A stretch of 64,000 bases of DNA, from positions 496,001-560,000 of the forward strand of contig CAMPEQ010000011.1 in the NCBI GenBank assembly GCA_946803585.1, given 5' to 3'. The translations under genes were made by a program, and so were the position numbers. Position 1 is the stretch's first letter; each line of letters begins with the position of its first letter. The notes beneath the pieces are model-generated. The model did no database searches, was not told where the DNA came from, and saw nothing but the letters and a program-made list of their open reading frames with translations. The DNA is from an uncultured Actinomycetes bacterium. Lineage in GTDB: Bacteria > Actinomycetota > Actinomycetes > S36-B12 > UBA10799. Shown one piece after another: positions 9,668 to 63,863 of the stretch.

Positions 9668-9706
9668 GAATCTGACACTAGTGTCAACTTGACGCAGGCG
9701 TCAAGT
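9665..9706 (-). promoter_or_regulatory. Leaderless promoter with two adjacent palindromic operators
   Basis: On the minus strand: -35 TTGACG (9704-9699), 18-nt spacer, -10 TAGTGT (9680-9675), 7 nt, then GTG (9667). Palindrome 1, TGACACTAGTGTCA (9673-9686), is perfect and covers the -10. Palindrome 2, ACTTGACGCAGGCGTCAAGT (9687-9706), has 9-bp arms and covers the -35. The two abut. A TetR dimer on either site would block RNA polymerase; the operon's own TetR is the natural candidate. The sites and spacing are seen directly; the regulator assignment is inferred. Confidence 0.8.
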
Positions 9707-10071
9707 GACTCGCCGAATCTGCCCTGAGTCGGCACAACTGCTAACCCAGTGGGCCGTAGAACCGTCGAGGCCTCGATCCAGCGACTGGTGGGGTATCTAG
9801 CCGGGCTCCCTTCACGACCAGATACCCCACCAGACCCCAGTGCTGTCGTTCTGCCCGCAGAACACCTGTTTGGACCACAGGGAACACCCGAACCATCCGC
9901 GCACCCCGACATTTCAAGCAGGTGGTGGAGTCGGCCGCATGATTCCAGTCACGAATGGCACATTTCTGGCGCACCGACGGCTAGGGTGCGATGTTGATTT
10001 GTGCTTAGCCCACCTTCACTCTCGAGAAACACTCAAGGACGCGGTGGTGCTGCCCCACCGAGAGGCCAACT
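9707..10071. other. Intergenic region between divergent carboxylase operon and SulP gene
   Basis: No gene is visible in these 365 nt. They hold a long hairpin at 9785-9833 and, toward the end, TAGGGT near 9983, which may belong to the SulP promoter. A GAGAGG ribosome binding site lies just before the TTG start of the SulP gene. Confidence 0.5.
9785..9833. repeat. Long inverted repeat (GTGGGGTA-type hairpin)
   Basis: Perfect 14-nt arms CTGGTGGGGTATCT (9785-9798) and AGATACCCCACCAG (9820-9833) around a 21-nt loop. It lies upstream of two divergent genes, so it is not an ordinary terminator for either. The core GTGGGGTA/TACCCCAC recurs in the hairpin at 21176-21230. Confidence 0.7.
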
Positions 10072-11595
10072 TTGTCCGTCACATCCGCGACCGCCCCGCC
10101 ACCAAGCGGGTGGGACCCGAAGGCACGCCTGCAAGCGACCCGCAAGAAGTTCACCCCCGGTGTCATCCGCACCGAGACCCTCGCCGGACTGGTCGTTGCC
10201 CTCGCCCTAATCCCTGAGGCGATCGCGTTCTCCATCATTGCCGGAGTGGACCCGCGGGTCGGGCTCTTTGCGTCGTTCACGATGGCCGTATCGATCTCGT
10301 TCTTCGGTGGACGCCCGGCCATGATCTCTGCGGCCACCGGCGCGATCGCGCTGGTAATTGCGCCACTCGTTGCGTCCCATGGTGTGCAGTACCTGCTCGC
10401 CGCAGTCATCCTCGGCGGACTCCTACAGATCGGCTTGGCGTTCATGGGGATCGCCAGGCTCATGCGGTTCATTCCCCGCAGCGTGATGATCGGCTTTGTC
10501 AATGCGCTGGCGATCCTGATCGCGATGTCGCAGCTGCCCTCGCTCATCGGTGTTCCTTGGCTGGTCTACCCGATGGTCGGCGTTGGCCTGCTCATCATGT
10601 GGCTCCTGCCCAAGGTGACCACGGTGATCCCTGCCCCGCTGGTGGCGATCGTGTTCCTCACAGTGGTCACTGTCGCCGCGAACCTCGCCGTTCCCAACGT
10701 CGGCGACGAGGGCGAACTCCCCGACAGCTTGCCGTCGTTCCTCATCCCGAACGTGCCCTTCAACTTCGACACCCTCGCGATCATCGCTCCCTACGCCCTC
10801 GGGATCGCCCTGGTCGGCATTATCGAGTCGCTCCTGACCGCGAAGCTCGTCGACGACATCACTGATACCCACTCGGATAAGACCCGCGAGTCGTGGGGTC
10901 AAGGCGCATCGAACATCATCACCGGCTTCTTTGGCGGAATGGGTGGTTGCGCGATGATCGGCCAGACGATGATCAACGTTAAGGTCTCTGGCGCGCGCAC
11001 CCGGCTGTCGACCTTCCTCGCGGGAGTTTTCCTGCTGATCCTGGTGGTCTCGCTCGGCGACATCGTGGCGATCATCCCGATGGCTGCTCTGGTCGCGGTC
11101 ATGTTGGTCGTTGCCGCCGCCACATTCAACTGGCACAGCATTCAGCCAGCGACCCTCAAGCGTCTCCCGAAGACCGAGACTTTCGTCATGGTCGTCACGG
11201 TCTTCTTCGTGGTCGTCACACATAACCTGGCGATCGGCGTCATCGCTGGCGTCACGGTGGCGATGGTTATGTTTGCCCGCCGGGTTGCCCACATGTCCGA
11301 GGTCGAACCAGTCCTCGACCCGAACTCCGACACCCGGATCTACCGCGTTACCGGTGAACTCTTCTTCGCCTCCAGTAACGACCTGGTCTTCCAGTTCGAC
11401 TACGCCAACGATCCCGCCAACGTCGTCATTGACATGTCCGATGCCCACATCTGGGACCCGTCGACCGTCGCCGCTTTGGACTCCATCGAGACCAAGTACG
11501 CCTCCAAGGGGAAGAAGGTCACGATCGTGGGGATGAACCGCGCGAGCGCCGCCATGCACCAGCGCCACGCAGGTTTGTCCGGCGACGACCACTGA
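10072..11595 (+). CDS. SulP-family anion transporter with STAS domain
   Basis: Inner-membrane anion carrier of 507 residues (sulfate, bicarbonate or a related oxyanion). After a short polar leader the transporter core begins with [20 protein letters not shown] (about 36-55) and has about a dozen hydrophobic segments up to residue 400. The end (about 415-507) is a STAS domain: [17 protein letters not shown], then [20 protein letters not shown]. The start is TTG with GAGAGG about 7 nt upstream. The next gene, 62 nt on, is MoeA-like, so oxyanion supply for molybdenum cofactor is a thinkable role, but there is no direct evidence and a bicarbonate or sulfate role is just as likely. Confidence 0.92.
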
Positions 11596-35668: not shown

Positions 35669-37171
35669 TTAGTTCAGGCCTTGGGCGCCCTTGGTCTTGG
35701 CACCGGCCAGCTTGGCGTTCTTCATCGTGGCGCCCGTGAAGTCGGCGCGCTTGGCGTTCGCCTTGCGAAGGTCCGCCTTGGTCAGGTCGGCCCGCACCAA
35801 CGTTGCCTTCACCAGATTGGCTTTGCGCAGGTTGGCCGCGACCAAGTTGGCCCCGGTCAGGTCGGCCTTCTTCATGTTTGCCTTAGCAAGCTTGGCCTTG
35901 GCAAGGTCGGCGTTACGAAGGTCAGCATTCTTTAGCTTGCCTTCTTTGAGGTTTGCCTTGGTCAGATCCGCACCCTTGAGATTCGCGTCCTTGAGCTTGG
36001 CCTCTTGTAGCTTCGCGGCCTCGAGGTCGGCATTCTTCAGGTTTGCGTCGACCAGCTTTGCGCCTCGCAGTTTGGCCTCCGACAGGTCGGTTCCCTTGAG
36101 CTTTGCGCCCGCAAGGTTCGCGCCCTTGAGATTCGCACCGGTGAGGTCCGCCCCCGTGAGGTTGGATCCCGCGAGGTTCGCGCCCTTGAAGTTTCCGCCG
36201 GCCAGGTCGTCACCCTTGAGGTTCAGACCCGACAGGTCGGCTCCAGCACAGGTCGTGTCGCCACACTTGTCGGCCAAGACAGCGGGCACTTTCGGGTTGG
36301 GGGTGCTGCCGAAGGTGATCGTGATCGATCCGTCGCCACCCGAGCCGCCGACCGCTGCACCGTTTCCGGCTGGCGTGAACGTCGTCCCAGCTGGTCCGGT
36401 GCTACCCCCGGCTCCCGCACCACCGACGCGTCCGTCGAACCCGCCGCTGGCACCTCCGCCGTAGCCTCCGCCACCGCCGGCGTAGCCGTCACCGCCCGCG
36501 CCATCTCCCACTCCCCAACCTGGGTTGTCATCGTTAGTGCCGCCCCCGCCGGGTCCACCGTTTCCATCGCCACCGTCCCGGCCGCTGGAACCGTGGCCAG
36601 TTCCGCCGTCACCGGCGCTTCCACCGTCTCCACCACCGTCACCTTCGCCGTCCTGACCGGCTGGAAGGTCGTTGTACGCGGCATCGCCGCCATCGTTGTT
36701 GTCCTGGTAGGCCGCGCCACCGCCACCGCCAGCGATTACCTGGTCAGGATCACCAGCAGACACGGTGGACGATCCGCCGCCGCTTCCACCGCGGGAATCA
36801 GTATTAGTTCCCCCGCCGCCGCCGCCACCGACGGTCAGCGGCAAGATCTCGCCCGGTGTCACGGTAAGAGCAGCTGTGACCTCTGCGCCGTCGCCGCCCG
36901 TTCCACTACCGGAGTTGTCGTAGGTTCCGCCGCCGCCGCCAACCGCGACTACCGTGATGCTGGTGATTCCGGCGGGAACCAGGTACGAGTGACTGCCAAC
37001 TTCCTCAAAGACGACGTCTGTCGACGCAGCGGTCGCCGTCGTCGACATCCCCGCGAGGGATGACCCCGCCAGCGCGATACCGCCGACACATGCGGCGGCC
37101 CTGACCCAACGACGGGAGGTTGAGCGATTCTGGCGATCAGTCTGCGGGACAGACAGTGGAGCGTTCGACAT
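35669..37171 (-). CDS. Secreted glycine-rich and pentapeptide-repeat protein
   Basis: Protein of 500 residues. A signal peptide (about 1-50, ending near MSTTATAAS) is followed by a glycine-rich domain (about 55-290; blocks like TVVAVGGGGGTYDN and LPLTVGGGGGGGTN), then about 38 pentapeptide repeats (about 305-497) of the A(N/D)LxG type forming a right-handed beta-helix, unusually lysine-rich in its second half (ANMKKADL, AKLKDANLK). Probably surface-exposed or wall-associated. No sorting motif or anchor is seen. ATG with AGGAAC upstream. Role unknown; adhesion or surface coating is a guess. Confidence 0.85.
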   Translation of the reverse strand: MSNAPLSVPQTDRQNRSTSRRWVRAAACVGGIALAGSSLAGMSTTATAASTDVVFEEVGSHSYLVPAGITSITVVAVGGGGGTYDNSGSGTGGDGAEVTAALTVTPGEILPLTVGGGGGGGTNTDSRGGSGGGSSTVSAGDPDQVIAGGGGGAAYQDNNDGGDAAYNDLPAGQDGEGDGGGDGGSAGDGGTGHGSSGRDGGDGNGGPGGGGTNDDNPGWGVGDGAGGDGYAGGGGGYGGGASGGFDGRVGGAGAGGSTGPAGTTFTPAGNGAAVGGSGGDGSITITFGSTPNPKVPAVLADKCGDTTCAGADLSGLNLKGDDLAGGNFKGANLAGSNLTGADLTGANLKGANLAGAKLKGTDLSEAKLRGAKLVDANLKNADLEAAKLQEAKLKDANLKGADLTKANLKEGKLKNADLRNADLAKAKLAKANMKKADLTGANLVAANLRKANLVKATLVRADLTKADLRKANAKRADFTGATMKNAKLAGAKTKGAQGLN

Positions 37172-41954: not shown

Positions 41955-42668
41955 ATGTCGACGCTAGTAGTTGTCGCGCACCCCGATGATGAAGCACTCG
42001 GTTTTGGAGCGTCCGGTGCGCTACTCGCAGCTAGAGGCGAAGTGGTGACATGTTGTTTCCTAGCTGGAGGCGTTACAGCGCGAGGCGCACGTCCCGCCAG
42101 TGAGGAACTACTGAGGGACAGCCTTCACGCTCAGGAAATACTCGGATTCTCACCACCAATCATGGGTGACTTCCCGAATATCGGGATGAACGCCGTTCCT
42201 CACCTCGATCTTGTCCAGTTCATCGAGAATGCGATTCAACAAACGCAAGCCTCATCAGTTATCACACATCACCCGCACGATATCAACGACGATCACCGAC
42301 AGGTCTGCTCCGCGACTTTGGCGGCATCCCGCCTGAACCAACGTCAACCGAACGGTTCAGCTCCGCCACTGTCGCAGCTGCTATTCATGGAGGTTCTCTC
42401 TTCGACAGAATGGCAGTTTCGTGGAGGTGGTGACGCGTTCGTCCCAGATACTTACGTCGAAATCGGCGAGGACGGTCTCGAACGCAAGATCGAAGCAGTT
42501 TCGGCGTACCGTGGAGTGATGCGACCGTATCCGCACCCGCGAAGTCCAGAAGCTATCAGAGCTCAGGCAGTGATGCGGGGCGCTCAAGCAGGCCTCAATC
42601 TAGCCGAAGCATTTGTGACTGGCTTCCGGAATTGGCATATTGACGACCTGCGCTCGGACACGCCATGA
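41955..42668 (+). CDS. PIG-L family deacetylase
   Basis: Zinc-dependent N-acetyl-sugar deacetylase of 237 residues. The metal motif VVAHPDDEALGFGASGA (about 6-22) is present, and the second His cluster is in THHPHDINDDHRQV (about 112-125). The 4-nt overlap with the formyltransferase, which in turn overlaps the sugar transferase, suggests that this enzyme removes an acetyl group and the next one adds a formyl group to the freed amine. This is inferred from gene order. It begins the plus-strand part of the locus. Confidence 0.92.
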   Translation: MSTLVVVAHPDDEALGFGASGALLAARGEVVTCCFLAGGVTARGARPASEELLRDSLHAQEILGFSPPIMGDFPNIGMNAVPHLDLVQFIENAIQQTQASSVITHHPHDINDDHRQVCSATLAASRLNQRQPNGSAPPLSQLLFMEVLSSTEWQFRGGGDAFVPDTYVEIGEDGLERKIEAVSAYRGVMRPYPHPRSPEAIRAQAVMRGAQAGLNLAEAFVTGFRNWHIDDLRSDTP

Positions 42669-43513
42669 GATTCGGATTTGTAACTTGCGTCCAGCTCGGA
42701 CTCGACGTCATGTCCGAGATCTACGCCATCGGGGGTGAACTAGATCTAGTAATCACGCTTGAAGACGACCAGGCGCAGAGCAAGTCGGGTCGCGTGTGGT
42801 TAGACGATTTTTGCGACTCGAAAAGCGTCACGCTTCTCAAGTCGCGATCCGTCAACGACCCGAAAGTCACGAAGGCGATCGAGGAGTATGCAATCGACTG
42901 GCTCTTCATTATCGGTTGGTCACAGATCGCGGCGCCAGCGACAATAAGCGCATCGACGAGAGGCTGCATCGGAATGCACCCAACGCTCCTGCCGGAAGGG
43001 CGGGGCCGTGCTTCGATCCCGTGGGCCATCCTCAAGGGCCTCGATAGGACGGGTGTCACGATGTTCCAACTCGACAGCGGAGTCGACACGGGACCCGTTC
43101 TTGCGTGGCAGGAAATTGCACTCACAGAAGAAACAACCGCCACAACTCTCTACCGCCAGGTACTCGAAGCTCATAGGCTCCTGATTTCGCGAACTTGGAA
43201 TGCCTTAAACGAGGATTCGCTGGAGGCAGTGCCGCAAGATCCGGCAAGTGGATCCACATGGCCAGGACGAACTCCCCGCGACGGAGAGATTACTGCCGAC
43301 ATGAGTGTGGCGGAGGCGACTGCGCTAGTAAGGGCGACGACCCACCCGTACCCTGGCGCGTTCTGGCGTGAGAACGACCGCGTGGTCAGGGTTTGGGGCG
43401 CCTCAACCAATGAGCCTTCCAACAACAAGCCAACTTTCACGTGCCACGACGGTCTGCTCGTCGCGCGGGACTTCAGTGTTGAACCCACCTCCCTGGCCGG
43501 TTCGGACCGCTAG
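42665..43513 (+). CDS. Formyltransferase-family protein (probable amino-sugar N-formyltransferase)
   Basis: Protein of 282 residues with the N10-formyl-tetrahydrofolate transferase fold. The core reads CIGMHPTLLPEGRGRASIPW and TGVTMFQLDSGVDTGPVL. The catalytic His (H105) and Asp (D141) are present, but the Asn two residues before the His is Gly (G103). A C-terminal domain of about 70 residues (WPGRTPRDGEITADMS, ATALVRATTHPYPGAF) matches methionyl-tRNA or sugar formyltransferase ends. Context favours an amino sugar over tRNA. Translationally coupled at both ends. Confidence 0.85.
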   Translation: MRFGFVTCVQLGLDVMSEIYAIGGELDLVITLEDDQAQSKSGRVWLDDFCDSKSVTLLKSRSVNDPKVTKAIEEYAIDWLFIIGWSQIAAPATISASTRGCIGMHPTLLPEGRGRASIPWAILKGLDRTGVTMFQLDSGVDTGPVLAWQEIALTEETTATTLYRQVLEAHRLLISRTWNALNEDSLEAVPQDPASGSTWPGRTPRDGEITADMSVAEATALVRATTHPYPGAFWRENDRVVRVWGASTNEPSNNKPTFTCHDGLLVARDFSVEPTSLAGSDR

Positions 43514-44097
43514 TGCACTCAACGAATCTCGTATACCGTCGTAAAGGAAAGCGCGTCCTAGATCTCCTCGTCGCTGTACCGTTTACTGTCTTCGCTGCGC
43601 CAATCGGTCTCGCAGTGGCAGTCGCGATCAGGCTAGATGACGGCGGACCGGTCTTTTTCACCCATGACCGCGTTGGTATTGACGGGCAGCGCTTCAAGCT
43701 GACCAAGTTTCGAAGCATGCCCGTTGGGACTTCGAACGTGTCATCGGCTGAGGCCACGACACTGACTGTGACTCGAGTCGGGACTATAATCAGACGCACA
43801 AGCATCGATGAGTTCCCCCAGATTCTAAGCGTTCTATCCGGTCAGATGAGCCTCGTTGGTCCGCGACCCGCAATTCCAACGCAGACCGAGTTGATCGAAA
43901 TGAGGCGAGCAAACGGCTCACTGGGCCTAAAGCCGGGATTGACCGGAACAGCACAACTGAACGCGTACGACGGGATGCCAGAGCAAGAGAAGGCCGTCTG
44001 GGATGCCGTCTATCTCAAAAGGATCAACTTGAGAACCGATCTTCGAATTCTGTTCGGGACGGTGCGCTACCTACTCCGCCGCCCGCCGAGCTACTAG
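43513..44097 (+). CDS. Initiating sugar-phosphate transferase (undecaprenyl-phosphate)
   Basis: Monotopic phosphoglycosyl transferase of 194 residues that puts the first sugar-phosphate on the lipid carrier. It has one hydrophobic segment (LLVAVPFTVFAAPIGLAVAV, about 17-36), then VFFTHDRVGIDGQRFKLTKF and RSMP, RTSIDEFPQILSVLSGQMSL with VGPRP, and KPGLTGTAQLN. This is the short PglC-like form without the N-terminal multi-helix domain. GTG start sharing its G with the formyltransferase stop TAG. It defines the repeat-unit start for the Wzy pathway. Confidence 0.94.
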   Translation: MHSTNLVYRRKGKRVLDLLVAVPFTVFAAPIGLAVAVAIRLDDGGPVFFTHDRVGIDGQRFKLTKFRSMPVGTSNVSSAEATTLTVTRVGTIIRRTSIDEFPQILSVLSGQMSLVGPRPAIPTQTELIEMRRANGSLGLKPGLTGTAQLNAYDGMPEQEKAVWDAVYLKRINLRTDLRILFGTVRYLLRRPPSY

Positions 44098-44108: not shown

Positions 44109-45083
44109 GTGGATGAATCTCAAGGTCATAGGCGCGTGATCGCCGTCGTTGGGTCGACGGGATTCATCGGTCGTGCATGCGTGGATCGACTGCGACTCAA
44201 CACAACGGTTGTTCCGGTGACCGCGCCCCGACTCCGTCCATTCACTACTTCCCTACACGATTTGAGAGGCGCGGTCCTCCCCGATCAGGCTGCGGACTTC
44301 GCTTACGCGCACTTCCAAGGCGTCGATATCGTCATCAATGCGGCTGGTTTGGCTGATGCGACGAGCGGAAACTTTCGCGACCTTGTCGGTGCTAACTCAG
44401 TAACCCCACTCTTCCTCCTCAAAGCGGCACAGATTGCGGGCGTCCGCCGTTTCGTTCACATTAGTTCGGCTGCAGTTCAAGGGACCGGCTACTTGGACGA
44501 GACAGAGCGACTGGAACCTGGCAGTAGCCCGTACGGCATTAGCAAGGCCCTTGGTGAACTCCTGCTGCGCGACGAGGCGACGATTGAGCTCATCCGCTAC
44601 CGGCCGACTTCAGTACACGGGGCCGACAGGCCAGTCACTCGGTCGCTGTCGCAGCTCGCCGCATCCGGCTTGGCTTTCGTTGCAGCACCTGGTGACGACC
44701 CGACTCCACAAACCAGTGTGGCCCGCGTTTCAGCTGTCGTGGAGTTTCTTTCCCGTGAGAGCGTAAAGCCGCCCGGAGCTGTCGCGCACCCTTGGGAAGG
44801 TGTGACAACGAGCCGATTCCTCAGAGAACTCAGTGGCCGTGAGCCCCGTTCACTAAATCGGTCCGCGAGCCGTTTCGCGGTCAAGACGGCCAGATCGCTG
44901 GGGCAACTTGGACCAGCTGCGGGGGGAAATGCACGTAGGCTCGAGATGATGCTGTTCGGTCAGCGACAGACTCCCGGCTGGCTCACACAACACTCTCAAT
45001 CTATCGAGCCAATCGAACCTGGATGGTTAGTGAAGATTCGAGAGGCGCTGCGGGAAGGCACCGTTGGGGGCGGGGACCGATGA
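44109..45083 (+). CDS. NAD-dependent epimerase/dehydratase family protein
   Basis: Extended SDR of 324 residues with the N-terminal VIAVVGSTGFIGRACVDRL (about 10-28) and the catalytic SSPYGISKALGELLL (Tyr-x3-Lys). Probably a UDP-sugar 4-epimerase or 4-ketoreductase in the repeat-unit pathway. The C-terminal part (GGNARRLEMMLFGQRQTPGW) is less conserved. GTG start 11 nt after the sugar transferase; its stop overlaps the next glycosyltransferase start by 4 nt. Confidence 0.88.
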   Translation: MDESQGHRRVIAVVGSTGFIGRACVDRLRLNTTVVPVTAPRLRPFTTSLHDLRGAVLPDQAADFAYAHFQGVDIVINAAGLADATSGNFRDLVGANSVTPLFLLKAAQIAGVRRFVHISSAAVQGTGYLDETERLEPGSSPYGISKALGELLLRDEATIELIRYRPTSVHGADRPVTRSLSQLAASGLAFVAAPGDDPTPQTSVARVSAVVEFLSRESVKPPGAVAHPWEGVTTSRFLRELSGREPRSLNRSASRFAVKTARSLGQLGPAAGGNARRLEMMLFGQRQTPGWLTQHSQSIEPIEPGWLVKIREALREGTVGGGDR

Positions 45084-46336
45084 AGATAGGGATACTCACG
45101 CAGTGGTTCGATCCTGAGCCCGGTCCCGCCAGCATCCCTGGCGTGTTGGCTCGAGGTCTGGCAGCGCGGGGACACGAGGTCCGCGTGCTAACTGGGTACC
45201 CGAACTACCCCCAAGGCCATCTCTATCCCGGATACAAAATGCGATTGGGAGACACCGTAGAAGAGGCCGGAATCACGACTACTCGTGTGCCCTTGTATCC
45301 GAACCATGGCACTTCTGCGAGTGGTCGCGTTGCCAACTACGCTAGCTTCGCCGCCTCCGCCAGCGCATTCGGTCTCCACACCATGCGACACCTTGACGCA
45401 CTTTGGGTCTATAACTCGCCTGCCACCGTCGCTTTACCGATGTGGGTACTCGCGCTTGGAGCGCGGGTACCCACACTTTTGCACAATATGGACATGTGGC
45501 CGGACAGCCTCTTCGCCACCAGTTTCCTTCCGGAACATCGGGGCGGTAGGGCTCTTGGTAAGGCGCTCGAGAAGTGGTGCGCAGGCATGTACGCGAGTGC
45601 CGCTGCCGTTGGATACATAAGTCCTAGCGCGGGAGTCGAACTCGCCAGCCGCGGTGTGGGAAGCGAGAAACTGGAGTATCTACCTCTGTGGGCCGATGAA
45701 GATATCTACTGTCCCGACGAAATCGCTGGCGCCGCTCAGCGCGCGGCGATGGGGATAGCCTCCGATGAAGTCGTCGTGATGTACGCGGGAGCGTTGGGAT
45801 CAGCCCAAGGTGTCGACGTCCTCGCTAGAGCGATCAATTCACTGCCGAGTGAAACGAAAATTCGTTGCCTAGTTGTTGGCAGCGGAACAATGGAGGAGAG
45901 CGTTCGACGATTGGCCTTGGCATCTGGCGGTCGAGTTAGTGTTTTGGGCTCTCGGCCACCGAGTGAAATGCACGCACTCGTCAACGCTGCGGATATTCAG
46001 TACATAGGGTTGGCGCCGAACCCTATGACTGAGTACACAATGCCCAGTAAGGTGCAATCCATCATGGCGAGTGGAAAGCCGTTGTTGGTATCTGCAGTTG
46101 GCGATATCCGATCCGTTGCGCGAGCCTCTGGCGGTGCGCTACTCGCTGAGGCCGCGGGAGATGCCGCTCTTTCTCGGCAACTCGAAGCCGCCGTTGAGCT
46201 GGGTCGGGGTGGGCTACGAAGCCTCGGAACCGCAAACCACGACTATTACCTAGAGAACTTTTCTCAGGGCTCGGGCGTCTCAAGCGTTCTCAAGGTTCTC
46301 GAAACAATTTCTGCTAGGAAGCACTCCGCTCGCTAA
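45080..46336 (+). CDS. Glycosyltransferase, GT4/WbuB-like
   Basis: Cytoplasmic GT-B glycosyltransferase of 418 residues. N-terminal MKIGILTQWFDPEPGPASIP and PNYPQGHLYPGYKMRLGD are typical of WbuB (FucNAc transferase)-like enzymes. The C-terminal donor domain has VVMYAGALGSAQGVDVLARA and YTMPSKVQSIMASGKPLLVS. If WbuB-like, it could transfer the L-FucNAc made by the capEFG genes at the other end of the locus. The start is the ATG overlapping the epimerase stop. Its stop overlaps that of the next, convergent gene. Confidence 0.9.
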   Translation: MKIGILTQWFDPEPGPASIPGVLARGLAARGHEVRVLTGYPNYPQGHLYPGYKMRLGDTVEEAGITTTRVPLYPNHGTSASGRVANYASFAASASAFGLHTMRHLDALWVYNSPATVALPMWVLALGARVPTLLHNMDMWPDSLFATSFLPEHRGGRALGKALEKWCAGMYASAAAVGYISPSAGVELASRGVGSEKLEYLPLWADEDIYCPDEIAGAAQRAAMGIASDEVVVMYAGALGSAQGVDVLARAINSLPSETKIRCLVVGSGTMEESVRRLALASGGRVSVLGSRPPSEMHALVNAADIQYIGLAPNPMTEYTMPSKVQSIMASGKPLLVSAVGDIRSVARASGGALLAEAAGDAALSRQLEAAVELGRGGLRSLGTANHDYYLENFSQGSGVSSVLKVLETISARKHSAR

Positions 46337-48816: not shown

Positions 48817-49935
48817 TCACCCGTTGTTGCTTTCTGTCGCGCTGAGCTCAGCGGGAACGCCTACTAAGTTCTGAAGGACGTTTGCCGCGCGAAGTCCAGC
48901 ATTCCCGTCCCAAAGGGGCGGAATGGCGTACGGACCCAAACCGTTCGCAAGTGTCGCCGACACTGTACTCACCACTGACTCAAGACTTACCAACGAATTG
49001 GTGCCCACACTCACAGTGACGGGCCGTTCAGTTGTCGTGCGAAGAGTGAAGCAAGGCACACCCAAGACGGTCGTCTCCTCTTGAACTCCACCAGAATCAG
49101 TGACGACGCCTAGGGAGGACTCAACTAGACCCATAAACTCTAGGTACGGCAAGGGGTTGGTCAGTGTGAGATTCGGAATACTGGCAAGACCCGCCGATTC
49201 CAGGTTCCTCCTACCGCGAGGATGCACTGGGAACACGAGATGAGTTTCCTCCGCCAACTCTGCCAGCACACGCACGACCCTTGAAGCCGACCGTGCGCTA
49301 TCGACATTAACCGGACGATGAATCGTCACGACAAGATACCCGGCGTGACGATTCTCAATCATACTCGGAAGGCTGCTATCGAATCTGGGCCGGAGTCGGA
49401 GCAGAGAGTCAATCATCGTATTTCCAACCATCGCTATCGATTCAATGCCATGTCCTTCTCTGATCAGATTCTCGGTAGCGTCATTGCTTGTGGTAAGAAG
49501 TGATGCGGCGAGCGCGTCGGTCACAATTCTATTGACTTCCTCCGGCATCGCCCGATCTCCGGACCTCAAGCCCGCCTCAACATGCGCGATTGGAAACTGC
49601 AGCTTCGAGGCAACTAGCGTTGCAGCGAGGGTGGAGTTTACATCCCCGTACACGACTACGGCTTTCGGTGGATGGGCGAGCATCTCCTCCTCCAGCGCAA
49701 CCAGTAGGGCTGCCGTCTGCGCCGCGTGACTCCCAGAACCAATATTCAAGTTTGCATCAGGGTGTCGAATGCCCAAGTCACGAAAGAATGACTCTGAGAG
49801 CGAATCATCGTAATGCTGGCCCGTATGAACGAGGCGCTGTGTCGCACCCCGAACCGCGAGCGCCGAAAGAACTGGTGCTGCCTTTGGGAAATTTGGTCTC
49901 GCGCCCACAACATGTAGGAAATCGAGACGACTCAT
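48817..49935 (-). CDS. wecB: UDP-N-acetylglucosamine 2-epimerase (non-hydrolysing)
   Basis: Interconverts UDP-GlcNAc and UDP-ManNAc. The 372 residues show VVGARPNFPKAAPVLSAL (about 9-26), HVEAGLRSGDRAMPEEVNRI (about 137-156) and TDSGGVQEETTVLGVPCFTL (about 276-295), all typical. It differs from the second 2-epimerase at 60.8 kb, which belongs to FucNAc synthesis, so this one probably supplies ManNAc or a derivative. No UDP-ManNAc dehydrogenase (WecC) gene is seen in the locus. Confidence 0.92.
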   Translation of the reverse strand: MSRLDFLHVVGARPNFPKAAPVLSALAVRGATQRLVHTGQHYDDSLSESFFRDLGIRHPDANLNIGSGSHAAQTAALLVALEEEMLAHPPKAVVVYGDVNSTLAATLVASKLQFPIAHVEAGLRSGDRAMPEEVNRIVTDALAASLLTTSNDATENLIREGHGIESIAMVGNTMIDSLLRLRPRFDSSLPSMIENRHAGYLVVTIHRPVNVDSARSASRVVRVLAELAEETHLVFPVHPRGRRNLESAGLASIPNLTLTNPLPYLEFMGLVESSLGVVTDSGGVQEETTVLGVPCFTLRTTTERPVTVSVGTNSLVSLESVVSTVSATLANGLGPYAIPPLWDGNAGLRAANVLQNLVGVPAELSATESNNG

Positions 49936-55633: not shown

Positions 55634-56860
55634 GTGATCACTGTGGAGAACTGGGCTGAGATCCGTCGTCTGCGTAGCAGCGAGGGAATGAGTACGAGAG
55701 CGATAGCAGCGCGGCTTGGTGTCGCGAGACGCACCGTCGATGTGGCGCTGGCAGCGGAGTCGCCGCCGAAGTATTCGCGTGCTGCGCGCGGGAGCGCGGT
55801 GGATGTGTTCGAGGGCGAGATTCGGGCGCTGCTTGCGGAGTTCCCGACGATGCCCTCGACGGTGATCGCTGAGCGGATCGGGTGGACGCGGTCTTCGTCG
55901 GTGTTGCGATCGAAGGTCGCTGATCTGCGCCCGCAGTATCGCGGCGTTGACCCGGCGGATCGCACCGATTACAAGGCTGGTGAGTTGGCTCAGTGCGATT
56001 TGTGGTTCCCGCCCGTGAGGATTCCGCTAGGCACGGGTCAGGTTGGGTCTCCGCCGGTGTTGGTGATGACGTCGGGGTTCTCACGGTTCATCACCGCGAC
56101 GATGATCCCGTCTCGAACGACTGGAGATTTGTCGGCGGGAATGTGGCAGCTCCTCGGGTCGATGGGAGGCGTCCCGAAAGTGCTGGTCTGGGACAACGAG
56201 TCCGGGATCGGTCAGAAACGCCGCCTCACGGACGGGGCCCAAGCATTCGCCGGAACTCTAGGGCTGCGCATTCTGCAGGTCCGGCCACGTGATCCGGAAG
56301 CGAAAGGCGTCGTGGAACGAGCCAACGGCTACTTGGAAACGTCCTTCTTGCCGGGGCGCGCGTTCGTCTCTCCTGTCGATTTCAATACCCAACTGGTGGA
56401 TTGGTTGGCCAAGGCGAACACGCGCCTGGTTCGCCGGATTCAGGCACGGCCAGTTGATCGGATTGGTGTTGACCGGGCCGCGATGCTCTCCTTGCCACCC
56501 GTTGCTCCGGTGACGGGACTGCAGTCTCGGGTTCGGCTTCCCCGTGACTGCTACGTTCGGGTGGATTCCAATGACTACTCCGTTCATCCCGACGCGATCG
56601 GTCATCTTGTTGATGTCAGCGCCAGTCTCGGCCAGATCCGTGTTGTCCTCGCTGGGCGTGAGGTCGCGGTTCATTCCCGGTCGTGGGCTGACCGATTAAC
56701 GATCACCGACCCGGCACACAAGAAAGCGGCCGCCCGATTACGAAAGGACTACCGGACCAGGGCCGCTAAAGCGGCCGAGCCACAGCAGGTTGAGCTTCGG
56801 GCGCTGCCGGACTATGACGACATGTTCGGCACCGGCCAGCCAGAAACGGTGGCATCATGA
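55634..56860 (+). CDS. istA: IS21-family transposase IstA
   Basis: DDE transposase of about 405 to 408 residues. N-terminal helix-turn-helix (ENWAEIRRLRSSEGMSTRAI, AARLGVARRTVDVAL), then the catalytic core with Asp in LAQCDLWFPP, Asp in KVLVWDNESGIG and Glu in AKGVVERANGYLETSF, then a C-terminal domain. A GTG at 55643 with GAAGGG 8 nt upstream is a better start than 55634. It overlaps istB by 4 nt, as usual in this family. Confidence 0.95.
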   Translation: MITVENWAEIRRLRSSEGMSTRAIAARLGVARRTVDVALAAESPPKYSRAARGSAVDVFEGEIRALLAEFPTMPSTVIAERIGWTRSSSVLRSKVADLRPQYRGVDPADRTDYKAGELAQCDLWFPPVRIPLGTGQVGSPPVLVMTSGFSRFITATMIPSRTTGDLSAGMWQLLGSMGGVPKVLVWDNESGIGQKRRLTDGAQAFAGTLGLRILQVRPRDPEAKGVVERANGYLETSFLPGRAFVSPVDFNTQLVDWLAKANTRLVRRIQARPVDRIGVDRAAMLSLPPVAPVTGLQSRVRLPRDCYVRVDSNDYSVHPDAIGHLVDVSASLGQIRVVLAGREVAVHSRSWADRLTITDPAHKKAAARLRKDYRTRAAKAAEPQQVELRALPDYDDMFGTGQPETVAS

Positions 56861-57657
56861 CCGCCACAAAAATCGGAGCCGACCAGACCGGGCCCGATAC
56901 CGATTCCCACATTCAGTTCCTCACCAGGGCGCTCAAGACTCCGGTGATCCGGGAATCGTTTTCCCGTCTCGCCGATCAGGCTCGAGATGAAGCCTGGACC
57001 CATGAGCAGTATTTGGCGGCCGTGTTGGATCGGCAAGTATCTGCCCGGGAAGCATCCGGGACCGCCATCCGGATCGCCGCGGCGCACTTCCCGGCAGTGA
57101 AAACGTTGGAGGAGTTCAACTTCGACTACCAGCCCTCCGCCCGCCGTGATGTCGTCGCGAACCTGGGCACCACCAGTTTCGTCACCGCTGGCGACAACGT
57201 TGTGTTGCTCGGACCGCCGGGGACAGGGAGAACGCATCTCGCGACAGGGCTCGGGATTCGGGCGGCCAACGCCGGTCACCGGGTCTTGTTCGCGACCGCC
57301 GCTCAGTGGGTCACCCGACTCCATGCCGCTCACGCGGCCGGGACCTTGACTCAAGAGCTGATCAAGCTGCGCCGCTACCCGTTACTGATCATTGACGAGG
57401 TCGGTTACATCCCGTTCGAAGGCGATGCCGGGAACCTGTTCTTCCAACTCGTCGCATCGCGCTATGAACACGCCTCCCTCATCGTCACCAGCAACATGGC
57501 ATTCGCCCGCTGGGGTGATGTCTTCGGCGACGACGTCATCGCCGGGGCAATGATCGACCGCCTCGTCCACCACGCCGAAGTCCTCTCACTGAAAGGAGAT
57601 TCCTACCGCACCAAATCACGACGCAAAACCAGCACGATCAACCAAACCGAGAAATAG
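56857..57657 (+). CDS. istB: IS21-family ATP-binding helper IstB
   Basis: AAA+ transposition helper of 266 residues that selects the target and activates IstA. Walker A reads LLGPPGTGRTHLATG: the normally invariant Lys is Arg at residue 125 (codon AGA). Walker B is LLIIDEVGYIPFEGDAG, with sensor 1 at IVTSNMAFARWGDVF. Otherwise full length. The K to R change could weaken ATP hydrolysis. Cotranscribed with istA through the ATGA overlap. Confidence 0.95.
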   Translation: MTATKIGADQTGPDTDSHIQFLTRALKTPVIRESFSRLADQARDEAWTHEQYLAAVLDRQVSAREASGTAIRIAAAHFPAVKTLEEFNFDYQPSARRDVVANLGTTSFVTAGDNVVLLGPPGTGRTHLATGLGIRAANAGHRVLFATAAQWVTRLHAAHAAGTLTQELIKLRRYPLLIIDEVGYIPFEGDAGNLFFQLVASRYEHASLIVTSNMAFARWGDVFGDDVIAGAMIDRLVHHAEVLSLKGDSYRTKSRRKTSTINQTEK

Positions 57658-57915: not shown

Positions 57916-58659
57916 GTGGGGATTTCGAGCGAATCGCACGACCAATACAATATGCACTACGAGAATGACCAGACACGATGGCGAGATCTCGGCGCACTTG
58001 GTAAGTCGGACAATATCGTCCGAGCGTGGAGCACCACGAACCTGAGCACTGAGAAATCACCGAGAGTCGTCGAGATCGGATGTGGGGACGGCGCTGTCGC
58101 CGCCAATCTGGCGGACCGCGGATTCTTTTCTTCCTACCTAGGGTTCGATATTGCAGAGAACGCAATCTTGGCGGCAGAACGGCGCGGGGTCGCTAATGCG
58201 ACCTTCGAGACCTTCGACGGCAGTAGCCTGCCCATCGCGGCCGAGACAGCCGATCTAGTTCTTATGACACACGTCGTCGAACATCTAGAGGATCCGCGCT
58301 CCTTGCTGATTGAGGCAAGAAGAATCGCTCCAGTGTTGATAGTCGAGGTTCCAACAGAGCTGCACTTCCGAACGCCAGAAGACTACGATTGGGATCCCGT
58401 GGGCCACATCAATAAGTACGACTCAACTTCGATCCGACATCTTGTTCAGACGTGCCGGTGGGACGTGGTGTCGCAGTTCACAACGAATCCAGCGCAGCCA
58501 TTGTCTGATTGGAAGGATTCCAGCCACAGAAATCGTCTCAATTGGCGTCTAAAGAACACGCTACTCAAGCTCCGGCCATCCTTCGCAAATAGGCTGTTCA
58601 CGTACCATGAAACGATCATTGCCTACCGGGCCCAATACCGAGCTCCACTAGCTACCTGA
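57916..58659 (+). CDS. Class I SAM-dependent methyltransferase
   Basis: Protein of 247 residues with motif I PRVVEIGCGDGAVAANLADR (about 49-68), an acidic LGFDIAENAI, and the typical TADLVLMTHVVEHLEDPRSL. A sugar or lipid-linked sugar methyltransferase is likely from context. The frame is open upstream to 57718, but GTG 57916 with GGAGG 6 nt upstream gives the normal N-terminus, and the upstream part is IS debris. The stop overlaps the capE start (TGATG). Confidence 0.85.
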   Translation: MGISSESHDQYNMHYENDQTRWRDLGALGKSDNIVRAWSTTNLSTEKSPRVVEIGCGDGAVAANLADRGFFSSYLGFDIAENAILAAERRGVANATFETFDGSSLPIAAETADLVLMTHVVEHLEDPRSLLIEARRIAPVLIVEVPTELHFRTPEDYDWDPVGHINKYDSTSIRHLVQTCRWDVVSQFTTNPAQPLSDWKDSSHRNRLNWRLKNTLLKLRPSFANRLFTYHETIIAYRAQYRAPLAT

Positions 58660-59681
58660 TGTCGGCTTCTAGGCGTGTGCTGATCACGGGTGGAACGGGA
58701 TCTTTCGGGTCAGCTACCACACGACATCTCATCAGCAACCCAAGCACAGAGGAGATCCGGATCCTCTCCCGCGACGAAGCAAAGCAGGACGACATGCGAC
58801 GCCGGATCAGCGACCCACGTGTGAGCTTTTACGTAGGAGACGTTCGCGACTACCGCAGCGTCGAAGACGCAATGTGTGGAGTCGACTACGTTTTCCACGC
58901 TGCTGCCCTGAAACAAGTCCCATCCTGCGAGTTCTTCCCTCAGCAAGCGATCGCAACCAACATCAACGGGAGCGACAACGTCATCCGCGCGGCCGCAGAG
59001 AACGGGGTCAAATCGGTCGTCTGCCTCTCCACAGACAAAGCCGTCTACCCGATCAACGCGATGGGTATGAGCAAGGCCCTCATGGAAAAGCTCGCTCAAG
59101 CGTTCGCTCGCAACAACCCAGATTCCGAGACCGTTGTCTCGTGCGTCCGCTACGGCAACGTCATGTACTCCCGCGGTTCCGTTATTCCGCTCTTTGTCGA
59201 ACAACTCTCCCAAGGCAAACCCCTCACGATCACCGATCCGGGGATGACACGCTTTCTCATGTCGCTGGCCGAATCAGTCTCGCTTGTCGAGTACGCATTC
59301 GAGAATGCGAAACCTGGCGACCTATTCGTCCGCAAGGCTCCAGCGTCAACTGTTGCTGACCTTGCCGAGGCCGTTGCCAACGTCATTGGCGTCGAACCGG
59401 ACACTCGGATCATCGGATCCCGTCACGCGGAGAAGCTGTACGAAACACTGCTGAGCGTCGAGGAAGTCGCCAAGGCTGAAGACCACGGCGACTACTTCCG
59501 TGTTCCGCTTGATGCCCGCTCCCTCGACTACGGTCTCTACACGGACGAGGGTTCCCGTGGACTCGACCAGGGCCAGGACTACAACTCCCACAACACGAAG
59601 CGTCTGTCCGTAGACGAAGTCGCTGAGCTTCTCATGACACTGCCCGAAATGCGGAAGCTCGTTGCAGAGCGCACCAAATGA
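58659..59681 (+). CDS. capE: UDP-GlcNAc 4,6-dehydratase/5-epimerase (CapE/FnlA type)
   Basis: First enzyme of UDP-N-acetyl-L-fucosamine synthesis. The 340-residue SDR has RVLITGGTGSFGSATTRHLI (about 5-24), FHAAALKQVPSCEFFPQQAI (about 86-105) and STDKAVYPINAMGMSKALME, with Met in place of the usual catalytic Tyr (MxxxK), as in this family. C-terminal VVAERTK-type end. Overlaps capF by 4 nt. Part of a tight four-gene plus-strand run. Confidence 0.93.
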   Translation: MSASRRVLITGGTGSFGSATTRHLISNPSTEEIRILSRDEAKQDDMRRRISDPRVSFYVGDVRDYRSVEDAMCGVDYVFHAAALKQVPSCEFFPQQAIATNINGSDNVIRAAAENGVKSVVCLSTDKAVYPINAMGMSKALMEKLAQAFARNNPDSETVVSCVRYGNVMYSRGSVIPLFVEQLSQGKPLTITDPGMTRFLMSLAESVSLVEYAFENAKPGDLFVRKAPASTVADLAEAVANVIGVEPDTRIIGSRHAEKLYETLLSVEEVAKAEDHGDYFRVPLDARSLDYGLYTDEGSRGLDQGQDYNSHNTKRLSVDEVAELLMTLPEMRKLVAERTK

Positions 59682-60781
59682 AGATCGCGATCACGGGTCC
59701 ACATGGATTCATTGCTTGGCATACTCGGGCCGCGCTGCACACTCAGCCCAAGCACGAATCGTTGCTGATTGGCCGTGATGAGTTCTGCGATCCGCAGTTG
59801 ATGGATAGCGTTCTCAATCAAGCCGACGCGATTATCCACCTTGCGGGCGTAAACCGAACCGGCGACGAGCGAGCAATCGTCGACACGAATCGTTGGCTCG
59901 CATCTCAGCTGGTTGCTGGGCTACATCGGACGAACCGAACGATCCCCATCGTCTACGGCAACAGTATTCACAAGGCCACCGGTACCGTCTTTGGGAGCGC
60001 AAAGGCTGCAGCCGCAGACACCCTCAAGCAATGGGCCGAGGCGGTGGGGGCCCCGTTCGCTGACGTCGTCCTGCCGAATATCTTTGGTGAACACTGCCGC
60101 CCGTACTACAACTCAGTAGTGGCGACTTTCTGTCACCAACTCGTCAACGACAAAGCACCCGAGATCCAGGTGGACCGGGAGATGCCACTACTCCATGTCC
60201 AGCGCGCGGCACAGCTCCTAATCGGCGCGGCGACGGATGCGGTGTCGGGGACGATCGAACCTGAGGGCACACCGATCACCGTGACCTGTCTACTAGAGCG
60301 TGTGCTAGAGATCCGCGATGCGTACCGGACGGCCGATCTCCCTGACCTGTCTGACCCGTTCACCCGCGACCTCTTCAATACCTACCGCTCCTACACCTTC
60401 CCCGAGCAATGGCCGATCTACCCCGAAGTCCGGGGCGACCAGCGAGGTGAACTGTTCGAGGTGGTGAAGTCTTTGGGAGGCGAAGCGCAGGTCTTCTTCT
60501 CGACTACGCGACCGGGCTTCACCCGCGGTCAACACTTCCACCTCCACAAAGTGGAGCGCTTCCTCGTCCTGCGGGGTACGGGCGTCATTCGCTTGCGGAA
60601 ACTCTTCACTGATGAGGTCGTTGAATTCCCCGTTAGCGGCGATCGTCCTGCCATCATCGATATGCCCACGATGTGGGTCCACTCCATCGTCAATACGGGC
60701 GCCGATGAACTCCTGACCCTGTTCTTCGCCGACGAACTGTTTGATCCCGAAAATCCCGATACGTACCCCGAGGAGGTCTGA
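59678..60781 (+). CDS. capF: CapF-type bifunctional epimerase/reductase (SDR plus cupin)
   Basis: Second step of the FucNAc pathway: 3-epimerisation and 4-reduction of the keto sugar. The 367 residues comprise an SDR domain (MKIAITGPHGFIAWHTRAAL, about 1-20; VVLPNIFGEHCRPYYNSVVA) and a C-terminal cupin (about 260-367: GDQRGELFEVVKSLGGEAQV, GFTRGQHFHLHKVERFLVLR) with metal-binding His residues. Overlaps capE by 4 nt. The order capE-capF-capG is the same as in Staphylococcus type 5/8 capsule loci. Confidence 0.93.
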   Translation: MKIAITGPHGFIAWHTRAALHTQPKHESLLIGRDEFCDPQLMDSVLNQADAIIHLAGVNRTGDERAIVDTNRWLASQLVAGLHRTNRTIPIVYGNSIHKATGTVFGSAKAAAADTLKQWAEAVGAPFADVVLPNIFGEHCRPYYNSVVATFCHQLVNDKAPEIQVDREMPLLHVQRAAQLLIGAATDAVSGTIEPEGTPITVTCLLERVLEIRDAYRTADLPDLSDPFTRDLFNTYRSYTFPEQWPIYPEVRGDQRGELFEVVKSLGGEAQVFFSTTRPGFTRGQHFHLHKVERFLVLRGTGVIRLRKLFTDEVVEFPVSGDRPAIIDMPTMWVHSIVNTGADELLTLFFADELFDPENPDTYPEEV

Positions 60782-60786
60782 TCGTC

Positions 60787-61902
60787 GTGAAGGTGATGAC
60801 AGTCGTCGGCACGCGTCCGGAGATCATTCGCTTGGCTGCGGTCATGCGGCGGCTGGACTCGACTCCCGGGATCGACCATGTACTTGTTCATACCGGTCAG
60901 AACTGGGACCACCAACTCAATGGCGTGTTCTTCGACGAACTTGGACTTCGGCTACCTGATCACGTCTTGGACGTAGACACCTCAAGCCTCGGCGCGACCC
61001 TTGGCGACATTCTGCGCAAGACCGAAGCCGTCGTCGAAGAAGAGCAACCTGATGCATTCCTCGTCCTCGGGGATACCAACAGCGCCCTATCGCTCATCAT
61101 GGCCAAGCGCTTGAAGCTCCCGACCTACCACATGGAAGCCGGCAATCGGTGCTTCGATGCGAACGTCCCCGAAGAGACGAATCGTCGCCTTGTTGACCAC
61201 ACCGCCGACTTCAACCTGGCCTACACCGAACACGCCCGCCGGAACCTGCTGAGCGAAGGGCTCGAACCCCGTCGCGTCTTGGTCACTGGGTCACCGATGC
61301 GCGAGGTCCTCGATACCTACCGTGACCGAATCGAAGCCTCCCATGCGCTAGCTGAGCTTGGTGTTAAAGCTGGCGAGTACTTCCTCGTCTCGGCACACCG
61401 TGAGGAGAACGTCGACAACCCCGACCGCTTGGCTCAGCTTGTCGATTCCCTGAACTCTGTTGCCGGGAAGTGGGGTCAGCAGGTCCTTGTGTCGACTCAC
61501 CCGCGGACGCGCAACCGCCTCGACGCTGATCGGGACTTGGTGATCAACGACCTCGTGCGCTTTCATCCGCCGTTTGGGTTCCTCGACTACAACAAGCTGC
61601 AGCTCAGCGCGGTGTGCGTTCTTTCGGATTCAGGCACGATCGCTGAGGAATCGACCATGCTCGGCTTTCCCGCCGTCACCTTGCGTGGGGCGATCGAACG
61701 TCCCGAGGCGCTGGATACCGGAGCCATCACGATGGTTGATGTCGATTCCGCGGCAGTCCTCGCGGGGGTTGAGTTCGCGATCGCGCGGGGACGAAATCCG
61801 GAAGCACCGGCCGACTACTGCGTCGAGAACACCAGCGCGCGAGTAGTGAACTTCATCTTGTCTACCGTTCCCCTGCACAAGCAATGGAGCGGATTGCGCT
61901 AG
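60787..61902 (+). CDS. capG: UDP-sugar 2-epimerase for FucNAc synthesis (CapG/FnlC type)
   Basis: Third step: 2-epimerisation giving UDP-L-FucNAc. The 371-residue WecB-fold protein has MKVMTVVGTRPEIIRLAAVM (about 1-20), HMEAGNRCFDANVPEETNRR (about 118-137), VSAHREENVDNPDRLAQLVD and LSDSGTIAEESTMLGFPAVT. The AGNRCFD motif differs from the AGLRSGD of the other epimerase in the window, as expected for the FnlC group. GTG start with GAGGAGG about 10 nt upstream, 5 nt after capF. Confidence 0.93.
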   Translation: MKVMTVVGTRPEIIRLAAVMRRLDSTPGIDHVLVHTGQNWDHQLNGVFFDELGLRLPDHVLDVDTSSLGATLGDILRKTEAVVEEEQPDAFLVLGDTNSALSLIMAKRLKLPTYHMEAGNRCFDANVPEETNRRLVDHTADFNLAYTEHARRNLLSEGLEPRRVLVTGSPMREVLDTYRDRIEASHALAELGVKAGEYFLVSAHREENVDNPDRLAQLVDSLNSVAGKWGQQVLVSTHPRTRNRLDADRDLVINDLVRFHPPFGFLDYNKLQLSAVCVLSDSGTIAEESTMLGFPAVTLRGAIERPEALDTGAITMVDVDSAAVLAGVEFAIARGRNPEAPADYCVENTSARVVNFILSTVPLHKQWSGLR

Positions 61903-61976: not shown

Positions 61977-63863
61977 ATGAGACTCCTGCAATGGCGCTGG
62001 GCGCTACTCGACATCTTCGCCTGGCTAGTCGCCGGGACCCTCGCCGCGACGATCCGTTTTGAGCTGATCCCCTCCGGAACTGTCGTCACCAACTACCTCC
62101 TCGTCGGCATCGCGGCGGCACTCACCCAACTAGCCGTTGGCTACATCTTCAACCTCTACCAGGGCCGCTACCGCACCGCGAGCTTCGACGATTTCCGCAA
62201 CATCAGCGTCACAACCATCACCGTCGCTGTCATCGTCACCATCCCCATCGTTGCCTTCCACCCGGTGGACTTCCCTCGCTCGATGGCCTTCACCTCCGGC
62301 GTCATCGCGCTGACCATCATGATTGCTGCCCGCGCCCTGCACCGCGTAAACTATGAACGCTCCATGACGACGCTCGCCACCGCCGAGAACGTCATCCTGT
62401 TCGGAGCCGGAGAAGCTGGCGAACAACTCGCCCGCTCAATGCGTCGCGACCCAAACGCCGGCTTCAACCCAGTCGCCTTCCTCGACGACGACCCGAAGTA
62501 CCAGAACCTCCGCCTAGAAGGCGTTCCCGTCGAGGGCACCCGTCACGACCTCAGTCGGCTCGTTCGCCAAACCGGCGCCACCACCCTCATCGCCGCCGTC
62601 GCCAACGCCGACTCCACGCTACTCACCGACCTCTCCGAACGCGCCGACCGCGCTGGGGTCAACCTCCTGGTCCTGCCACCAGTCAGCCAACTCGTCACCC
62701 AAGGCGTCGGCATCGGCGACCTGCGCGAGATCAGCGAGGCCGACCTACTGGGCCGAGCCGTCGTCGAGACCGACCAGCAGGCCATCTCCGAGCTCATCCA
62801 CGGCAAGCGCGTCCTCATCACCGGTGCCGGCGGCTCCATCGGCTCCGAACTCGCCCGCAAGATTCAGCCGTTCGGCCCCAAACGCCTCTTCCTGCTCGAC
62901 CGCGACGAGTCGGCTCTGCACGCGGTCCAGATGAGCCTGCACGGCCATGCGCTCCTCGAAGGTGAGGACGTGATCCTCGCCGATATTCGCGACCCCCACC
63001 GCCTCACCGAGGTCTTCGACGAGTGTCAGCCGGAGATCGTGTTCCACGCGGCCGCGCTCAAGCACCTTCCCCTCCTGCAGCACGCCCCCAAGGAAGCCAT
63101 CAAGACCAACATCGCGGGCACCACCAACGTCCTGGCGGCGGCGGAACGCTCCGGGGTGGAGGTGTTTGTCAACATCTCCACCGACAAGGCGGCAAACCCC
63201 ACCAGCGTGCTGGGCTTCTCCAAACGCATCACCGAGCGCCTCACCGCCGAACTCGACTCCCGCAACGGCGCCCGCTACATCAGCGTGCGCTTTGGCAACG
63301 TGCTCGGCAGTCGCGGCTCGATGCTCGGCACCTTCACCGAGCAGATCAACCGCGGCGGGCCGGTCACCGTCACCCACCCGGACATCACCCGGTTCTTCAT
63401 GACCATCCCTGAGGCGTGCGAGCTCGTCCTGCAGGCCAGCGTTGTTGGCCGCGGTGGCGAGGTGCTGATCCTCGATATGGGCGACCCGGTGCGCATCACC
63501 GACGTCGCCAACCGATTGATCCGCCACTCCGGTCAGCGCATCAAGATTGTCTACACCGGACTACGTGATGGCGAGAAGCTCCACGAGGATCTGGTCAGTG
63601 ACACCGAGGATGGTGCACGGCCGTTCCATCCGAAGATCACCCATGTGCGGGTACCAGCCCTTGATCCGTCTGCCGCCCGGCCTGATCTGCGGGAGCCTGA
63701 CGAGGAGATTCGAACCTGGATGGCGAAGATGGCCTACCTGGTTCCCGAGGTGTCAGCTCCTCAACCAATCCGTGTCGCGTCGCCCGAGAGCAGTTCTGAG
63801 GAGGGCCTTCCAGCTAGCCCTCGCGACCGCGTTCGTGACGCTCGGGGTGGGGCCACCAGCTAG
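61977..63863 (+). CDS. Membrane nucleotide-sugar 4,6-dehydratase (WbpM/CapD-like)
   Basis: Protein of 628 residues: four N-terminal transmembrane helices (about 8-115), a first Rossmann domain (NVILFGAGEAGEQLARSMRR, about 139-158) and the catalytic SDR domain (KRVLITGAGGSIGSELARKI, about 278-297; FHAAALKHLPLLQHAPKEAI; STDKAANPTSVLGFSK). It makes UDP-4-keto-6-deoxy-GlcNAc, the entry to bacillosamine, QuiNAc or FucNAc. In the MxxxK position it reads LGFSK, so Met is Leu. It may also be the true start of the amino sugar later formylated. Confidence 0.92.
   Translation: MRLLQWRWALLDIFAWLVAGTLAATIRFELIPSGTVVTNYLLVGIAAALTQLAVGYIFNLYQGRYRTASFDDFRNISVTTITVAVIVTIPIVAFHPVDFPRSMAFTSGVIALTIMIAARALHRVNYERSMTTLATAENVILFGAGEAGEQLARSMRRDPNAGFNPVAFLDDDPKYQNLRLEGVPVEGTRHDLSRLVRQTGATTLIAAVANADSTLLTDLSERADRAGVNLLVLPPVSQLVTQGVGIGDLREISEADLLGRAVVETDQQAISELIHGKRVLITGAGGSIGSELARKIQPFGPKRLFLLDRDESALHAVQMSLHGHALLEGEDVILADIRDPHRLTEVFDECQPEIVFHAAALKHLPLLQHAPKEAIKTNIAGTTNVLAAAERSGVEVFVNISTDKAANPTSVLGFSKRITERLTAELDSRNGARYISVRFGNVLGSRGSMLGTFTEQINRGGPVTVTHPDITRFFMTIPEACELVLQASVVGRGGEVLILDMGDPVRITDVANRLIRHSGQRIKIVYTGLRDGEKLHEDLVSDTEDGARPFHPKITHVRVPALDPSAARPDLREPDEEIRTWMAKMAYLVPEVSAPQPIRVASPESSSEEGLPASPRDRVRDARGGATS

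Follow-up and report, generated by a model that had tools for sequence, protein, structure and literature searches.

A trio of overlapping genes in the 64,000-nucleotide stretch of DNA analysed here (the window), which comes from an uncultured Actinomycetes bacterium, probably constitutes a module that makes and loads an N-formylated initiating sugar, with a substrate, step order and formyl product that we infer. We favour an acetyl-to-formyl swap in which the sugar that starts the repeat unit, probably D-FucN or QuiN, exchanges the group on its 2-nitrogen. With somewhat less confidence, we lean towards the wider view that a PIG-L enzyme and a Gly-type formyltransferase provide a widespread, aminotransferase-free N-formyl route. 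In at least seven bacterial phyla this route would convert 2-N-acetyl to 2-N-formyl on the first sugar of surface polysaccharides, and a relative of it would act on nonulosonic acids in haloarchaea.

The three overlapping genes and their predicted products

The first gene (41955..42668, + strand, ATG start, TGA stop) encodes a PIG-L/LmbE-family N-deacetylase of 237 aa (PF02585), the second (42665..43513, +, ATG start) an ArnA-like formyltransferase-fold protein of 282 aa (FT; PF00551 and PF02911), and the third (43513..44097, +, GTG start) a small monotopic-type sugar-1-phosphate transferase of 194 aa (PGT; PF02397). The PIG-L and FT genes share 4 nt (ATGA) and the FT and PGT genes 1 nt (TAGTG), and both the ORF coordinates, which are exact, and the Pfam identities agree with the sequence-only reading, which had described a deacetylase, a formyltransferase and an initiating sugar transferase overlapping in this manner. 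The GC3 of the trio (0.54-0.65) lies below that of most neighbouring genes. The overlaps were rejected as evidence on their own, because related loci often show short overlaps or gaps at their junctions (17 of 98 overlap, and the gap is about 30 nt or less in most others), and tight overlaps are ordinary in operons. No gene fusions of PIG-L, FT and PGT were found among the surveyed loci of FT relatives.

The PIG-L protein matches PF02585 with E=9e-16 (59 bits against a cut-off of 28.2) and carries the metal-site motif HPDD as well as the distal DH, with H9, D11, D12, D113 and H114 invariant in 68/68 homologues. Its AlphaFold2 model (pLDDT 92.5) gave BshB (6ull, E=1e-14) as the top Foldseek match, and its proposed role is removal of a 2-N-acetyl group. 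The PGT (Bac_transf, PF02397, E=3e-50, 170.7 bits) resembles PglC (8g1n) and WbaP, falls in the PglC/CapM size class, and has a catalytic dyad, D99-E100, that is invariant in 47/47 sequences; it is predicted to initiate the repeat unit.

For the FT, both Formyl_trans_N (PF00551, E=4e-22) and Formyl_trans_C (PF02911) exceed their Pfam cut-offs, and the proposed role is N-formyl capping of the amine freed by PIG-L. The AF2 model (pLDDT 94.8), built from an alignment without plasmid-derived rows, matches the formyltransferase domain of ArnA (2bln), the closest fold and one that acts on a UDP-sugar, with a VIA-align Z of 29.4 and an rmsd of 2.6 over 269 residues. The residue aligned with Asn102 of ArnA, which is the catalytic Asn in ArnA and FMT, is Gly103 in 84/84 aligned relatives. 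The canonical Asn of the Asn-His-Asp triad is thus absent, while H105 and D141 are invariant in all 84; the GWS and GxHP motifs are invariant in the subfamily and the HPxxLPxxRGR loop is kept. Degeneration of the FT in this genome alone was rejected, since Gly103 is found throughout the subfamily. The substitution nevertheless makes it less than certain that formyl is transferred in the usual way, and together with the invariant GWS motif it gives some ground for proposing that the protein moves some other group or draws on another donor, the product then not being N-formyl. We regard this as improbable, given the retained His, Asp and HPxxLPxxRGR loop, the match to the ArnA fold (Z 29), and the presence of a Gly-type FT in a Natrinema locus syntenic with that of an N-formyl sugar producer (see below).

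Conservation of the association and source of the amine

A pattern scan based on the FT only, with one genome per species, gave 80 loci, among which those with an FT identity of 46-58% were taken as close (51 found, 52 counting the window). PIG-L was adjacent to FT in 50 of the 51 (51/52 with the window), the sole exception being cut by a contig end, and the close loci show two gene orders and two PGT classes in at least seven phyla: Cyanobacteriota, Bacillota, Fusobacteriota, Bacteroidota, Pseudomonadota, Chlorobiota and Actinomycetota, besides deltaproteobacterial MAGs. As estimated from the density of PIG-L genes in the window's genome, adjacency by chance would be about 0.5% per locus, so the association of FT with PIG-L is far beyond chance, for loci that are not independent, as an operon can move as a unit. 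FT and PIG-L distances correlate at 0.73, a value confounded by shared ancestry. All three genes occur together in 46/51 close loci across these phyla, so that the triplet, which the sequence-only reading had proposed to look for in other genomes, recurs widely; with the window included the PGT is found in 47/52, in support of the suggested coupling to chain initiation. The order PIGL-PGT-FT was seen 32 times and PIGL-FT-PGT 15 times, window included. By mean identity (48% versus 33%), the window's PGT falls in the class seen with the other gene order, so a given order does not always go with the same PGT class.

Polysaccharide clusters are mosaics in which overlaps of a few nucleotides are common, and on that account the trio might be no more than neighbouring polysaccharide genes, without a functional link, in a cluster of ordinary density. 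This we consider highly improbable, as PIG-L adjoins FT in nearly all the FT-ascertained relatives, across all these phyla and in either gene order.

In two loci the GT4 gene is followed by another PIG-L/FT pair (L037, 5556-6683; L074, 10656-12255, where the pair lies directly before FnlA), which suggests that a second sugar may be formylated there too. The searches returned only distant relatives of the FT in the order and phylum to which the window belongs, the gene was absent from the three other genomes of its genus that were searched, and a phage collection gave distant matches only (at most 29% identity).

No DegT sugar aminotransferase was found in the window's genome (98.8% complete), in which the seven matches to the DegT profile of Pfam are aspartate/methionine aminotransferases, SufS, HisC, BioF, an EgtE-like lyase and GlyA. 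A local aminotransferase is present in only 8/52 close loci (window included), and in 6/34 of those with long flanks. This scarcity makes de-N-acetylation by PIG-L the simplest source of the FT acceptor, and most likely it is PIG-L that would supply the amine. Among more distant FTs, and in a few Bacillota, the situation differs: alphaproteobacteria, including Leisingera and Roseibium, have PGT-FT-PIGL-DegT operons, and the Bacillota in question have PIG-L-FT-DegT; in these loci the FT could instead act on a 4-amine. Such operons favour a reading with two nitrogens, in which FT acts on an aminotransferase-made 4-amine and PIG-L on the 2-N-acetyl group; for the trio this is unlikely, the window's genome having no sugar aminotransferase and most close loci none nearby. 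Plasmid-borne PGT-FT-PIGL-aminotransferase operons were also observed in marine alphaproteobacteria (L011, 7360-10807; L012, 7384-10815) and may represent a 4-amino form of the module.

The same scarcity bears on a comparison with ArnA, ArnC and ArnD, by which UDP-L-Ara4N is formylated, moved to Und-P and deformylated. In that system the amine acted on by ArnA, which has an Asn-His-Asp triad, comes from the aminotransferase ArnB, and ArnD belongs to a different deacetylase family. What the Arn set shares with the trio is the ArnA-like FT fold, a deacylase and an enzyme that transfers to undecaprenyl phosphate, whereas the trio has no aminotransferase and a Gly in place of the FT Asn. By analogy, formylation could be transient, with FT formylating an amino-sugar nucleotide, the PGT transferring it and PIG-L deformylating it to leave a free amine. 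The closeness of the FT fold to ArnA, its position beside a transferase to undecaprenyl phosphate and the constant presence of a deacylase would fit; a separate source of the amine would however be needed, in a genome without a DegT sugar aminotransferase and a family in which few close loci have one, and the haloarchaeal product described below retains its formyl group. We judge this scheme about as unlikely as the two-nitrogen one, and ArnD-like deformylation, two nitrogens and a non-formyl donor are each less likely than the swap.

The surrounding polysaccharide cluster and a proposed pathway

Downstream of the trio lies a gene for an SDR-family NAD-dependent epimerase/reductase (44109..45083, +, PF01370), a candidate for the 4-keto reduction to UDP-D-QuiNAc or D-FucNAc, the 4-reductase assignment being inferred; its homologue adjoins the module in Jidongwangia (L104). 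It is followed by a WcaI-like GT4 glycosyltransferase (45080..46336, +), the candidate second-sugar transferase, with homologues adjoining the module in many loci. A PglF/WbpM-type UDP-GlcNAc 4,6-dehydratase is encoded at 61977..63863 (+; PF02719, E=8e-102, with CoA_binding_3) and has a homologue in 28/52 close loci. The cluster further holds FnlA/FnlB/FnlC-type genes for UDP-L-FucNAc (58659..61902, +; TIGR04130, E=7e-130, and NF047837, E=2e-67, both below the equivalog cut-offs, and TIGR00236, E=1e-70), a WecB-type UDP-GlcNAc 2-epimerase for UDP-ManNAc supply (48817..49935, -; TIGR00236, E=2e-82), a Wzx-like flippase and a weak similarity to a polymerase, and a UDP-HexNAc dehydrogenase gene begins at the window's end. 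This sugar set presumably resembles that of S. aureus cap5/cap8, with FnlABC, a PglF type, a small PGT, a GT4, a 2-epimerase and a UDP-HexNAc dehydrogenase; to our knowledge, sets of the cap5/cap8 type contain neither PIG-L nor FT. Beside the cluster, an ORF at 35669-37171 (-) encodes a protein that carries a putative signal sequence and a Gly-rich region and has a long tail resembling pentapeptide repeats.

In the pathway we propose, the PglF-type enzyme and the SDR would produce from UDP-GlcNAc a nucleotide-linked 6-deoxy-HexNAc (probably UDP-D-FucNAc or UDP-D-QuiNAc), from which PIG-L would remove the 2-N-acetyl group. The ArnA-like FT would then transfer a formyl group from formyl-tetrahydrofolate to the freed amine, the PGT would pass the formylated sugar-1-phosphate to undecaprenyl phosphate, and the GT4 would add the second sugar; the swap could take place either on the UDP-sugar or on the lipid-linked sugar.

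Inside the cluster, 55634-57657 holds a transposase gene of the IS21 type, with rve and Mu-type C-terminal domains, and the ORF after it. This element, and the absence of the FT from the other searched members of the genus, are consistent with horizontal gain.

Relation to known systems and significance

The N5 of legionaminic acid is the 2-nitrogen of GlcNAc, which is acetylated in UDP-GlcNAc, and 5-N-formyl-legionaminic acid therefore requires an acetyl-to-formyl exchange. The glycan of Halorubrum sp. PV6 carries this sugar, and genes 1046-1053 of the strain are ordered LegC-LegB-LegF-LegG-FT-NeuD, then the undescribed gene 1052, then LegI, with no deacetylase named in the main text of the paper (PMC6137143). 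A Natrinema locus (L075) reads LegC-LegB-NeuA-LegG-FT-NeuD-PIG-L-NeuB, matching the PV6 order and having a Gly-type FT, and its PIG-L gene (9582-10250, -) occupies the slot of gene 1052. A PIG-L at this slot could be the missing deacetylase, the support being synteny with another genus and not proof; none of the plasmid matches listed was from Halorubrum. The PV6 locus resembles the window's trio in having formyl on a GlcNAc-derived nitrogen, with a predicted FT beside NeuB/NeuC-type genes, and differs in that it concerns a nonulosonic acid, an archaeal N-glycan, and the last sugar instead of the first. The ORFs annotated near the trio in the window include neither NeuB nor NeuA, both of which are present in L075.

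Other sugar formyltransferases (WbkC, VioF, WlaRD, QdtF, FdtF and Rv3404c) share the FT's fold (Z 21-25) and probable reaction, and act on 3- or 4-amines from aminotransferases, in contrast to the de-acetylated 2-nitrogen proposed here. The systems MshB/MshC, BshB/BshC and teicoplanin Orf2 combine, as is proposed for the trio, PIG-L deacetylation of an N-acetylhexosamine with acylation of the resulting amine by a second enzyme; there the cap is Cys or a fatty acyl group instead of formyl, and the reaction has no coupling to the initiation of a polysaccharide. Among bacterial polysaccharides, a 2-N-formyl hexosamine is already known from the Pseudomonas aeruginosa O6 O-antigen, which contains D-GalNFoA, although not as the initiating sugar, QuiNAc being listed at that end. 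The enzymatic route and the first-sugar placement appear undescribed: no account of the trio, the swap route or this placement was found in the literature searched, which leaves most subscription journals outside. The remark of the sequence-only reading that no described pathway has PIG-L preparing a formyl acceptor likewise holds in that literature, which covers few such journals. As to the swap itself, which that reading had suggested from gene order, comparative genomics supports it well (near-universal adjacency of FT and PIG-L, no sugar aminotransferase in the genome, and the synteny of L075), while an FT without the canonical Asn weighs against it.

Known sugar N-formyltransferases depend on aminotransferases to install the amine, a need from which the swap would free cells. 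If the proposal is true, any cell with UDP-GlcNAc-derived sugars could make N-formyl glycans, formylated first sugars would be predicted in many uncharacterised polysaccharides, and the swap could provide the deacetylation still missing from the route to 5-N-formyl-legionaminic acid in haloarchaea. The trio also marks a formyltransferase subfamily that appears to be active without the canonical catalytic Asn.
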